Source: an uncultured Fibrobacter sp.
GTDB taxonomy: Bacteria; Fibrobacterota; Fibrobacteria; Fibrobacterales; Fibrobacteraceae
Length of the DNA: 64,000 nucleotides
Assembly: GCA_946414075.1 (NCBI GenBank)
Contig: CAMKNA010000006.1
Coordinates: 1-64,000 of the forward strand
Direction: 5' to 3'
Shown here: in pieces, positions 15,673 through 42,277 of the stretch
How the letters are laid out: each line of letters starts with the position of its first letter
Numbering within the stretch: position 1 is the stretch's first letter
Program-made: the position numbers and the translations under genes
Notes under the pieces: model-generated
The model's input: only the letters and a program-made list of their open reading frames with translations
Told to the model about the DNA's origin: nothing
Database searches by the model: none

Positions 15673-15712
15673 ATACTATTTAACTATTGCTTGTTATAGG
15701 TTTAAGCTATAA
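15673..15712 (-). promoter_or_regulatory. metY promoter with operator (TTATAGCTTAAACCTATAA, 17 bp, TAGTAT)
   Basis: Inverted repeat ATAG-N7-CTAT at 15696-15710; candidate -10 TAGTAT at 15673-15678; same spacing as at 27631-27668. Confidence 0.65.
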
Positions 15713-16861
15713 CAATGCTTCATTTTCCGATTTTGGCTGTATGGTCCGAATCATGTGGTGTCTGTCATACAATTCATCAAACATGCTACGGTATGCCTCA
15801 ATATCATCCAATTGAACGATAGTCGTAATCTTGTTCCCGGCATCTTTGCTTGAAGCTCCGCAATGGTACAGTTTTTCGCTTTTGGTCTTAAAGTCAACAA
15901 GAATGTAGCGGTCGTGAAACTTGTGCGCGGCAGAAACTTTGTCAATCGAAACACCCGGCATTACGCCTCGGAAATCGTTGAGCATATCGTCCGTTATGCG
16001 AGCGTATTGGTCACTTGCTATCAAGATGGAAACGCCTTTGCGTGCGTACCGAAGCAAATTTAGGGTCTTAATGTCGACATAGTTGTCGACAATCAACAAC
16101 TTTTTCTTAGCTATGCTGTAAATCTGCGCGTAGGCGACATCGGCCTCCAACTTCTGCCCGTTCAGAATCAAGAAGTGCCTATAGGTTGAGGGATCGACGA
16201 AATTTTCCATGACCATCTGGAGGTCCACATTGAATTTTCCCAAATCGCTCCGGATATCGCGAACTTCGCCGGAAAGTTCCTTAACTTCGGCAGAAACCAC
16301 TGCGATTTCATGTGTATTTTGAGCTGTTTGCGCTGCAATCTGTGCAATTCCCGCAGTCCCGAGCAATTGCTGATTTTCTGCGACGATATAGTCCTTCATC
16401 TGCTTGAAAAGGCGGATAAGGGCCTTACTTTGGGCAGTTGCCCGCTCACCCTTGAGAACAGTCATGAGCATATAGATGCCCTGTTCGGTAAAGGCAAATG
16501 GCATCTTTCTTAAACCACCCCAACTTGAAGTCAAAATTTTTGACTTCAAGTTGTCTTTTTTGTAAAAATTGTCGAAATTCGACGAATTTTCGCATCTTGA
16601 GGTCGATTTTTTCGATTTCAAGATTTCAAATTCATCTGAAGTCAGCTGAAATCGAAAATCTTCGTCGAATTTTTCGATATTGTTTTTTACCTGTTGGTTA
16701 AAGACCTTTTTCTCATACCCGTAGATTTCAGCCAAATCGGCATCCAGCATCACCTTGACCCCGCGAATCGTGTATATCCGCGATTTGAGCAGGTTTTCGT
16801 CTATCAGGGATATTCCCGGCTTGACTGGCGTAACCGCCACATCTTTCTTCTTTTTAGCCAT
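15707..16861 (-). CDS. ORF6N-domain protein with C-terminal PLD-like domain (copy 1)
   Basis: IRGVKVMLDADLAEIYGYEKKVFNQQVKNNIEKFDEDFRFQLT ... SSWGGLRKMPFAFTEQG; C-terminal HDRYILVDFKTKSEKLYHCGASSKDAGNK. Confidence 0.85.
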   Translation of the reverse strand: MAKKKKDVAVTPVKPGISLIDENLLKSRIYTIRGVKVMLDADLAEIYGYEKKVFNQQVKNNIEKFDEDFRFQLTSDEFEILKSKKSTSRCENSSNFDNFYKKDNLKSKILTSSWGGLRKMPFAFTEQGIYMLMTVLKGERATAQSKALIRLFKQMKDYIVAENQQLLGTAGIAQIAAQTAQNTHEIAVVSAEVKELSGEVRDIRSDLGKFNVDLQMVMENFVDPSTYRHFLILNGQKLEADVAYAQIYSIAKKKLLIVDNYVDIKTLNLLRYARKGVSILIASDQYARITDDMLNDFRGVMPGVSIDKVSAAHKFHDRYILVDFKTKSEKLYHCGASSKDAGNKITTIVQLDDIEAYRSMFDELYDRHHMIRTIQPKSENEALL

Positions 16862-23117: not shown

Positions 23118-23144
23118 TTTCCCAGTTGTCGCAAATTTTGTAAC

Positions 23145-23171
23145 AACTCCTCGAAATTTTCGAGGAGTTGG
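23145..23171. terminator. Hairpin after giant helicase gene
   Basis: CAACTCCTCGAAA-T-TTTCGAGGAGTTG perfect inverted repeat; weak U-tract. Confidence 0.5.
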
Positions 23172-23263
23172 GTTATTAAGGGTTCCTTGACAACTCAAAA
23201 TGCGGTCAAGCGGGGCGTTGCGGGGGTATCCCTGCTAGAAGGGGTAGCGGATGAATCGGCTAG

Positions 23264-24198: not shown

Positions 24199-24272
24199 GA
24201 GTCGGCAGGCTTTCCAATCCCAGCGCAAAAATTTTGTATATTGTGCCCCAACACCAGAAAGGGTGATATTAA

Positions 24273-24308
24273 AAGATCGCTATCCGCGCAGGCGGGGCGG
24301 TCTTTTTT
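24273..24308 (+). terminator. Terminator-like hairpin directly upstream of SD of ORF6N copy 2
   Basis: AAGATCGCTATCCGC-GCAG-GCGGGGCGGTCTTTTTTT followed by AAAGGAGtaaaaATG. Confidence 0.65.
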
Positions 24309-24327
24309 TATGCCCAAAGGAGTAAAA

Positions 24328-25272
24328 ATGGCGAAAAAAGGCGAAATTGTAGTGACAAACCCGCTCGTGGAGTCGGGGGTCGAAAAGATGATTCGGGTTA
24401 TCCGTGGCAAGCAGGTCCTACTTGACCGCGATATTGCGACGCTGTATGGCGTTGAAACTAGGGCTATAAATCAGGCTGTAAAACGTAATATTGAACGTTT
24501 TCCAGAGCGGTATTGCTTTCAGTTGGTAAAGGGAGAATTGGAAAACTTGAAATCACAAAATGTGATTTCAAGTTGGGGTGGAGACCGGTTTATGCCCTAT
24601 GTTTTTACTGAACAAGGGTTTGCAATGCTTTCATCCGTTTTGAAAAGTAGAGCCGCTGTGAATGTTTCCATAGCGATTATGGATGCATTCGTCGCCATGC
24701 GGCAGTATTTATACCAGAATGGGGGGATTGTCAATCGTCTTTCTAATGTGGAAGCAAAGGATTTAGAGCAGGATGCCCGCCTTCTTGATCATGACAAAAA
24801 AATAGATTCGATTTTCGAGGCGATGGACCGCGGCGAACTGCAGTCGAAGGGGCTGTATTACAACAACCAGATGTTCGACGCTTATGTGTTCGTGTGCGGG
24901 CTAATCAAGCAGGCGAAAAGGCGGATTGTCCTTGTGGACCGATTCGTGGACGAGAAGGTGTTTGTGATGTTGCTCAAGCGCGGCAAGGGTGTGTCAGCGA
25001 CCATCTACACCTACGACAAAAGCAAGGCACTCAAGGTGGACCTGGCAACTTACAATGCGCAGTATGGCGACTGCCCGCTCAAGGTTCTGCCGAGCTACGG
25101 AATGCACGACCGTTTCCTGTTTATTGACGATACGGCATACCATTTCGGTGCCTCACTGAAAGACTTGGGCACAAACACGTTTTTCTTCACGAAGGAGGAT
25201 TTCACACTAGAAGAGGTGCTGAAGAAGTCGGAAGAAAAACGGAAGGAACTGGAGAGCCTGAAAGGTGGATGA
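24328..25272 (+). CDS. ORF6N-domain protein with C-terminal PLD-like domain (copy 2)
   Basis: IRGKQVLLDRDIATLYGVETRAINQAVKRNIERFPERYCFQL...SSWGGDRFMPYVFTEQG; HDRFLFIDDTAYHFGASLKDLG. Confidence 0.87.
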   Translation: MAKKGEIVVTNPLVESGVEKMIRVIRGKQVLLDRDIATLYGVETRAINQAVKRNIERFPERYCFQLVKGELENLKSQNVISSWGGDRFMPYVFTEQGFAMLSSVLKSRAAVNVSIAIMDAFVAMRQYLYQNGGIVNRLSNVEAKDLEQDARLLDHDKKIDSIFEAMDRGELQSKGLYYNNQMFDAYVFVCGLIKQAKRRIVLVDRFVDEKVFVMLLKRGKGVSATIYTYDKSKALKVDLATYNAQYGDCPLKVLPSYGMHDRFLFIDDTAYHFGASLKDLGTNTFFFTKEDFTLEEVLKKSEEKRKELESLKGG

Positions 25273-41056: not shown

Positions 41057-42031
41057 TCACCCCTTCGTGCTTTCCCTCACTTTCTCAATGACTTCTTCCG
41101 GTGTCACAAAATCCAGCACGCTGAAAGCCGTCATCTCGTTACCCATGTCCTTGAAACTTGCGCCAAAATGATATACAGTGTCATCGACCAGAAGAAAACG
41201 GTCGTGAATCGTGCGCATGGTCTTCAGTTCTAAATTTGGGTACTGCTTTTTGTGCAATTCTGCTGCAGCTTGGAATTCGGGTGTAATTCTCGGGGAGTAG
41301 ATTGTTGCCGAGACACCTTTCGCCCGCATGGCCGCGAATTTTAGCACCTCGACGGTGGCATACGGGTCGATGAATACTACGGATTTTTTGGCGGTTTTCA
41401 CAAGATCCGAAATCAGTATAAACCCGTCAAACCGCGTTCCAGTCGCAAGAATTCCACCCGTTGGAGTTTGTGCCGCATTCACGAAAAAGTCTATACGTTG
41501 TTCGACTGCGGAAAGCCGAGTATCAACATTTGCGAGTTTGACGCCTTGGCCTTCGATGAGTTGCCGCTGTTCGTGCAGACGGTCCGCAATCTGCAAATCG
41601 GTCGATAGCTTTCGCTGGTTTATGGCGTAACCCTTGAGCATGAATTCCTTGAGAACTCCCAATGCCCACTGCCGAAAACGCGTTCCCGCAATAGACTTGA
41701 CTCGATATCCGACGGATATGATAATGTCCAGATTATACCATAGGACCTTACGAGAAACCTCTCTTTTCCCTTCTTTTTGAACTGTCAAGTATTCCTTGAC
41801 AGTTCGATTTTGCATGAGTTCCCCTTCTTTGAAAATGTTTGAGATGTGCAGACTCACGTTTTGCTTTGACGCATGAAACAGTTCCGCCATCTGTGCCTGT
41901 GTAAGCCATACGGTCTCGTTTTCTACACGAACTTCTAACCGCACTTCGCCTTCCGGCTGGTAAAGCACGATTTCGCCCCTGTTTTCGTTCCCGACCTGGT
42001 CGGGAATCTCAATTTTATCCTTTTTGCTCAT
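41057..42031 (-). CDS. RhuM-like protein with C-terminal PLD-like domain
   Basis: VENETVWLTQAQMAELFHASKQNVSLHISNIFKEGEL...NLDIIISVGYRVKSIAGTRFRQWA; HDRFLLVDDTVYHFGASFKDMG. Confidence 0.88.
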   Translation of the reverse strand: MSKKDKIEIPDQVGNENRGEIVLYQPEGEVRLEVRVENETVWLTQAQMAELFHASKQNVSLHISNIFKEGELMQNRTVKEYLTVQKEGKREVSRKVLWYNLDIIISVGYRVKSIAGTRFRQWALGVLKEFMLKGYAINQRKLSTDLQIADRLHEQRQLIEGQGVKLANVDTRLSAVEQRIDFFVNAAQTPTGGILATGTRFDGFILISDLVKTAKKSVVFIDPYATVEVLKFAAMRAKGVSATIYSPRITPEFQAAAELHKKQYPNLELKTMRTIHDRFLLVDDTVYHFGASFKDMGNEMTAFSVLDFVTPEEVIEKVRESTKG

Positions 42032-42042
42032 TTTACCTCCAT

Positions 42043-42109
42043 AAAAAAAGTCGTATTTCCATAGCCCGCAGCCGATTTTAGCTGCTATGGGATATGGAAA
42101 CACGACTTT
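42043..42109 (-). terminator. Long terminator-like hairpin in RhuM-like gene leader
   Basis: Minus strand AAGTCGTGTTTCCATATCCCATAGCAGC-taaaatc-GGCTGCGGGCTATGGAAATACGACTTTTTTT then ATGGAGGTAAAATG. Confidence 0.8.
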
Positions 42110-42277
42110 CGCGGGGTAATATACAAAACAGAACCAGGAAAGGGCAAATTTATTACAAATTGCGGGGAACCGCCCCCCCTTAGTTTGTTTATGAAATTTT
42201 ACAATGGGGGGGGGTATGGACTTTGGCAGGGGCACTACCTATATTTCACAAGATAAACTATAGACGGGGATGTTTTT

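Follow-up and report, generated by a model that had tools for sequence, protein, structure and literature searches.

ORF6N and RhuM genes carry an internal palindrome that covaries with the recognition helix of the encoded protein and is probably its own binding site

Three genes of the ORF6N and RhuM families in the window, the 64-kb stretch of DNA analysed here, each carry an inverted repeat inside their coding sequence, which raises the question of what such a palindrome serves and what reads it. The sequence-only reading had described all three repeats as perfect, and all three are indeed present and perfect (Table 1), with arms of 16 nt around a single central nucleotide in ORF6N copy 1, of 14 nt around 3 nt in ORF6N copy 2, and of 11 nt around 5 nt in the RhuM gene. 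When pairs are numbered outwards from the dyad centre (k), 10/10 pairs from k3 to k12 are found at only four places in the 64 kb, namely these three palindromes and 23157, and a shuffled 64-kb sequence holds a mean of 2.1 places with even 9/10 pairs over the same span. Synonymous shuffling of the genes reached the observed arm length in 0/3000 cases for ORF6N copy 2 and in 1/3000 for copy 1. The two ORF6N sites differ from each other at two pairs, k7 (A/G) and k3 (C/A), with complementarity kept at both, so that the compensatory changes previously noticed between the copies are correctly described. As judged by eye, strong terminator-like hairpins also lie just 5' of the RhuM and ORF6N copy 2 start codons (41985-42110 and 24260-24330, respectively).

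Table 1. Coordinates of genes, recognition-helix codons and palindromic sites in the window.
Feature	Position	Strand	Support
ORF6N copy 2 gene: HTH, long helix, PLD-like C-terminal domain	24328..25272	+	PF10543 4.9e-33; AlphaFold2 model
Recognition-helix codons of copy 2 (TRAINQAVKRN, residues 44-54), putative site reader	24457..24489	+	covariation, AlphaFold2 model
Palindromic site of copy 2, AACTTGAAATCAC AAAAT GTGATTTCAAGTT	24544..24574	.	k7=A, k4=A, k3=C predicted by R45, Q49, R53
ORF6N copy 1 gene, ~25 aa insert ahead of site	15707..16861	-	PF10543 2.6e-31
Recognition-helix codons of copy 1 (KKVFNQQVKNN)	16679..16711	-	covariation
Palindromic site of copy 1, CAACTTGAAGTCAA AAATT TTGACTTCAAGTTG (- strand)	16521..16553	.	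k7=G, k4=A, k3=A predicted by K, Q, N
Additional TCGA-N5-TCGA dyad, imperfect in its arms, within the insert of copy 1	16603..16615	.	
Further TCGA-N5-TCGA dyad of copy 1	16665..16677	.	
RhuM gene: HTH, beta strands, PLD-like C-terminal domain	41057..42031	-	PF13310 5.7e-24; AlphaFold2 model
Recognition-helix codons of RhuM, SKQNVSLHISNIF, residues 55-67	41831..41869	-	covariation, AlphaFold2 model
Palindromic site of RhuM, GAACTGTCAAG GAATA CTTGACAGTTC (- strand)	41779..41805	.	inner AAG expected for Leu before His
Intergenic array, three RhuM-type sites of different classes	23123..23196	.	centres 23136 (8/10 pairs), 23157 (10/10), 23183 (7/10)

Both ORF6N proteins are members of the Pfam family of that name (PF10543; 113.7 and 108.2 bits, with a curated cut-off of 27.8 bits), and the RhuM protein is a member of Virulence_RhuM (PF13310; 85.2 bits, cut-off 33.7 bits), its match covering only the N-terminal 75/252 positions, with a PLD-like domain replacing the C-terminal part. 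A search of PDB sequences turned up no solved structure of a convincing relative. All three window proteins match the PADLOC phage defence candidates PDC-S05/PDC-S23 (E-values of 3.4e-107, 2.7e-98 and 3.3e-114), and in Roseomonas the RhuM gene is flanked by the methyltransferase and specificity genes of a type I restriction-modification (R-M) locus; on these grounds a role of ORF6N and RhuM in the control of defence loci is plausible but untested, as is any defence function. Among phage genome records a relative of the ORF6N gene was found in only 7, and Phage_pRha (PF09669) was set aside, its matches in the phylum being mostly ORF6N cross-matches.

The palindromes extend well beyond this locus. 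In a sample of 150 RhuM and 143 ORF6N genes from many phyla, complementarity of the arms lies far above that of synonymous shuffles, a comparison that the sequence-only reading had itself proposed. RhuM genes carry the palindrome at one fixed codon position directly after the HTH, with an inner sequence that is highly variable and still complementary, and the residues encoded at the flanking positions covary as complementarity demands (V..T, I..I, S..L, C..Q, T..V). Of 84 genes, 76-83 have a Watson-Crick pair at each of the positions k3-k7, where re-pairing the arms would give 22-40; the mean is 9.28/10 pairs versus 6.32 in synonymous shuffles, and the summed pair score of 1392 compares with a shuffle maximum of 988. 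In some RhuM genes that seemingly lack a dyad (L326, L322, L295, L006), inspection by eye finds it shifted by some bases. ORF6N genes of Fibrobacterota, Bacteroidota, Bacillota, Spirochaetota and others carry the palindrome between the HTH and the FTEQG motif, with a core TCRCA-N3-TGYGA and complementary outer arms of up to 21 bp, and dyad arms of at least 9 (from k3) occur in 57% of the genes as opposed to 0.14% of synonymous shuffles. A degenerate form of the core, RRTCRCAAWTTGYGAYY, matches 72/151 genomes of the phylum with at most 8 copies each, while its reversed control has zero matches in any genome listed; the majority of the matches whose locus was examined lie inside ORF6N genes. Two broader searches were discarded: a scan of viral contigs with the core GGTCRCAAWTTGYGACC returned 120 stretches, few of them in ORF6N genes and many resembling ordinary terminators or chance, and the short ORF6N half-site RTCAM-N5-KTGAY proved too degenerate genome-wide (53 matches versus 16 for the reversed control). 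Terminator-like intergenic hairpins containing the ORF6N core, AAAGAGGTCRCAAATTGYGACCTCTTTT, were seen in L208, L200, L177 and other viral contigs, where either chance or genuine ORF6N sites are possible. Separately, the coding sequences of L034, L075, L104, L106, L112, L367 and L354 hold at least two palindromic units in tandem, sometimes of different class.

Computation shows that the palindrome is conserved at the DNA level and independently of reading frame. One could still suppose that co-evolution is confined to the protein, between the recognition helix and the palindrome-encoded strand, leaving the palindrome as a by-product, and the RhuM model, in which the palindrome-encoded residues form a strand adjoining the HTH, lends this some substance. 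Nevertheless, we give the idea very little credence. That selection on the protein alone would not require a palindrome had been argued from the window, and it is borne out by complementarity well beyond synonymous shuffles in both families; codons are conserved beyond residues, codon identity at identical residues in diverged same-class RhuM pairs being 0.87 inside the site versus 0.40 upstream; ORF6N genes translate the core in two frames, as RSQIAT and as VANCD, with the same helix-base code, so that one DNA sequence yields different peptides; and full sites with outer arms are present in non-coding DNA.

To identify what the half-sites follow, we calculated the mutual information of each RhuM protein column with the half-site bases (80 sequences). 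For k3-5 the highest value (excess 1.46 bits, z 22.5) belongs to the residue that precedes the helix His, and the five leading columns all fall in the recognition helix or the preceding turn, the best column elsewhere reaching 0.47; for k6-8 the leading three columns are again in the recognition helix. The residue before His goes with the base at k4, E, D or Y with G, L, Q or I with A, and K or R with C. In a held-out set of 67 viral-contig loci this relation held for K with C in 17/17, R with C in 13/13, L with A in 14/14 and E with G in 10/10 cases (54/54 for these four residues), Tyr being mixed (3/5), and the pooled concordance at k4 is 139/141 over the genes with at least 8/10 pairs (141/148). 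Shared ancestry offers no explanation, since closest pairs with a different residue class differ at k4 in 64/65 cases as against 2/64 for same-class closest pairs, and distant pairs follow class, k4 being equal in 66/66 same-class and 0/128 different-class pairs. The expected class is carried by the RhuM genes of Roseomonas, B. thetaiotaomicron, Vibrio and Ligilactobacillus, and one Pseudomonas RhuM gene has no good dyad at the expected position. The B. thetaiotaomicron gene (L475), from plasmid p5482 of strain VPI-5482, has the site TGTTCC-ATTTT-GGAACA. The window RhuM, with Leu before His, has the AAG half-site as expected, and in the entire genome assembly its half-site GTCAAG-N5-CTTGAC is met a single time, inside rhuM. 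An AlphaFold2 model of this protein places the covarying residues 56-61 on the second HTH helix (residues 56-68).

A related code is found in ORF6N, where the residue after the helix Asn accompanies k4 (Q with A in 74/75, E with G in 37/40, R with C in 8/10 and L with T in 4/4 genes), a Lys earlier in the helix accompanies G at k7 (101/102), and helix position 10 accompanies k3 (R with C in 101/110, N with A in 20/21). Sister pairs of differing class differ at k4 in 50/55 cases versus 10/68 for pairs of the same class. The held-out set is small and weaker here, with Q to A in 14/15 and E to G in only 2/4, and the KNN subgroup fits poorly. In the AlphaFold2 model of ORF6N copy 2 the HTH helices span residues 33-40 and 44-53, with the covarying residues 45, 49 and 53 on the second; the three code positions, being four residues apart, lie on one face of the helix. 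Three of the k4 assignments (E to G, Q to A, R to C) are common to both families, and the base choices match commonly seen contacts of Arg or Lys with G, Gln with A, and Glu or Asp with C. The window pair itself follows the code: the helix of copy 2, TRAINQAVKRN, predicts A at k7, A at k4 and C at k3, and ATCAC is observed, while that of copy 1, KKVFNQQVKNN, predicts G, A and A, with GTCAA observed. Both compensatory differences between the copies are those predicted from the helix differences R/K and KRN/KNN.

These data make it highly probable that each palindrome is a double-stranded DNA site of the protein encoded by the same gene, physical binding being an inference. The earlier suggestion of an operator bound by the protein itself is in this way strongly supported by the covariation of helix and half-site, without binding data. 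The same reading had raised the possibility of an RNA element, that is, of a hairpin selected in the sense-strand mRNA for attenuation, processing or translation control. Long perfect arms could fold stably, and in ORF6N complementarity extends past the helix-tied bases; more generally, the arms are complementary out to k12-k15 at bases uncorrelated with the helix residues tested (bases k8-k15) and without a known reader, a point that also weighs against the self-binding reading. However, an RNA stem would tolerate G.U, whereas G.T mismatches are not above A.C mismatches, with 11 G.T versus 21 A.C among RhuM mismatches at k3-12 and fewer G.T than A.C in frame 0 of ORF6N at k8-13, and a hairpin gives no account of bases that track the HTH recognition helix. 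The RNA reading is disfavoured on this evidence, and we judge it very unlikely. In frame 1 of ORF6N, k9 is a fixed T/G combination that is probably set by the codons. We attach similarly slight weight to a mobile palindromic repeat inserted in these genes, like the Rickettsia palindromic elements. Such a repeat would fit the duplicated units within L106, L112, L075 and L367 and the arrays between genes, but the sequence is not kept as an element and changes along with the host gene's helix, its position in RhuM is fixed relative to the HTH, and the copies in Fibrobacterota are mostly inside ORF6N and RhuM genes.

If the palindromes are bound by their own proteins, the N-terminal HTH would engage the dyad as a symmetric dimer (a stoichiometry that is likewise inferred), with recognition-helix residues reading bases 3 to 8 (counted from the centre of the dyad) and a site that may extend to about base 12 in RhuM and to 13-15 in ORF6N. 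The codons of the recognition helix precede the site by roughly 40-200 bp, so reader and target are inherited, exchanged and changed together. A protein bound within its own transcription unit could act as a roadblock and thereby limit its own transcription. Negative autoregulation is to our mind the likeliest role, a view that we hold with only modest confidence, repression being inferred in the absence of expression data: as the internal site is the only nearby own site of the HTH dimer, limiting its own transcription is the simplest role to infer. Two features expected of an autoregulatory operator are met, namely dyad symmetry above coding expectation and half-site bases that follow the recognition helix encoded by that gene. 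Furthermore, the palindromes of paralogues sampled in genome G051 differ, so that paralogues in one genome would not silence each other.

A perfect second own site within about 500 bp upstream was found in only 2/149 RhuM genes (147/149 without), so that the usual promoter operator is lacking and repression from the internal site has to be assumed. In ORF6N genes, mainly those of Bacteroidota, a second site near the gene start is possible and is often off the gene's own code; among the upstream sites of genes of the Glu class, 11 match the gene's own code and 11 belong to the other class. Such off-code sites are not predicted by simple autoregulation and look as if intended for a paralogue. 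Intergenic DNA in the vicinity of ORF6N or RhuM genes also holds sites of the RhuM type whose outer arms are intact. Non-coding examples of this kind lie at ~1508 in both L525 and L523, L525 having two of different class in tandem, and the array of the window (23123-23196), which comes after a gene for a 1648-aa helicase, combines the half-site classes GCA, CGA and AAG at spacings of 21 and 26 bp. ORF6N-type sites were observed about 20 nt 5' of YhcG/DUF1016-like and AlbA_2-like genes (L136:101, L137:1501, L143:1251), those in L137 and L143 being preceded by an apparent remnant 3' end of a YhcG-like gene; these gene labels rest on sequence likeness and are untested. Because of the off-code upstream sites, the intergenic sites and arrays, and the ORF6N-type sites before other genes, a regulatory network among ORF6N and RhuM paralogues is possible. 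Within copy 1 of the window, the insert and nearby codons (16565-16680) hold two TCGA-N5-TCGA dyads of the half-site class of L003, a third ORF6N paralogue in the same genome with the helix TRRINEAVRNN and the site GTCGAAAATTTCGAC.

Binding of the site by its own protein could also serve a DNA transaction rather than repression: recombination, initiation of replication, partition, or a gene conversion through which paralogues trade the block of helix and site. Helix and site are swapped as a block between the near-identical genes L307 (NVPGISKH, TTTCC) and L291 (CSADNIGLH, CCGAG), which have the same flanks, sites stand in tandem arrays within and between genes, and the C-terminal domain is PLD-like in fold. 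Yet the nuclease signature of the PLD family, HxK-x4-D, is absent from the window proteins P0001 and P0003, which have HDRFLFID and HDRFLLVD, that is, HDR-x4-D with Arg for Lys in a similar fold; over the whole chain their fold is matched best by TrmB/TrmBL2, which bind DNA and act as regulators; and the same site is found where the RhuM protein has the C-terminal part of Pfam RhuM in full length. We therefore consider a DNA transaction unlikely, if deserving of more attention than an RNA hairpin or a mobile repeat; a recombination role for the palindromes is not excluded, and no evidence here requires one.

Precedents exist for a binding site within the gene of its reader. The O protein of bacteriophage lambda has dyad binding sites (ori) inside its own gene, with type-specific recognition linked to the sites. 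The likeness to ORF6N and RhuM lies in dyad sites of a protein within its own gene; the lambda sites, however, form an iteron cluster that serves as a replication origin, whereas the genes of ORF6N and RhuM, two Pfam families spread across phyla, usually have a single dyad, with a one-residue/one-base code. Similarly, spo0J/parB, the gene of an HTH protein, contains a parS palindrome to which that protein binds, but parS is nearly invariant and also occurs elsewhere for chromosome partition, whereas the ORF6N and RhuM sites diversify with their reader. TrmB/TrmBL2, matched over the whole chain by both window models, resemble them as HTH proteins with a PLD-like C-terminal domain, the whole-chain TM-score being low (0.24-0.33) and a PDB sequence match lacking; we know of no self-encoded site for TrmB/TrmBL2. 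Controller and repressor proteins of R-M loci are a further comparison, RhuM too lying inside a type I R-M operon, for instance in Roseomonas. RptR, one example, is a small regulator of type I R-M islands that binds palindromic promoter repeats with one conserved site, and its abstract makes no mention of an internal site or of matching diversification (PMC12255303). In the open-access literature on ORF6N, on RhuM with DNA-binding or restriction, and on intragenic operators, most subscription papers being outside this scope, no report was found of a family-wide, code-linked own site inside the gene, which therefore appears to be new, with lambda O and spo0J as known precedents.

Overall, we lean towards a model in which ORF6N and RhuM proteins are self-addressed regulators, a single piece of DNA encoding the recognition helix and holding its target across the codons just after it, and in which helix and target would be exchanged as a unit into new, orthogonal specificities, with intergenic arrays wiring paralogues together and the code readable from the genes. 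The conserved palindromes offer a clear case of DNA-level selection within coding sequence, and a concrete biochemical handle on two poorly understood families that are also listed as phage-defence candidates. If the model is true, thousands of genes would carry both a reader and its target, with a binding specificity legible from their own sequence, the residue-to-base code of this HTH would be derivable and testable at large scale, and the families would constitute a natural set of orthogonal regulators.
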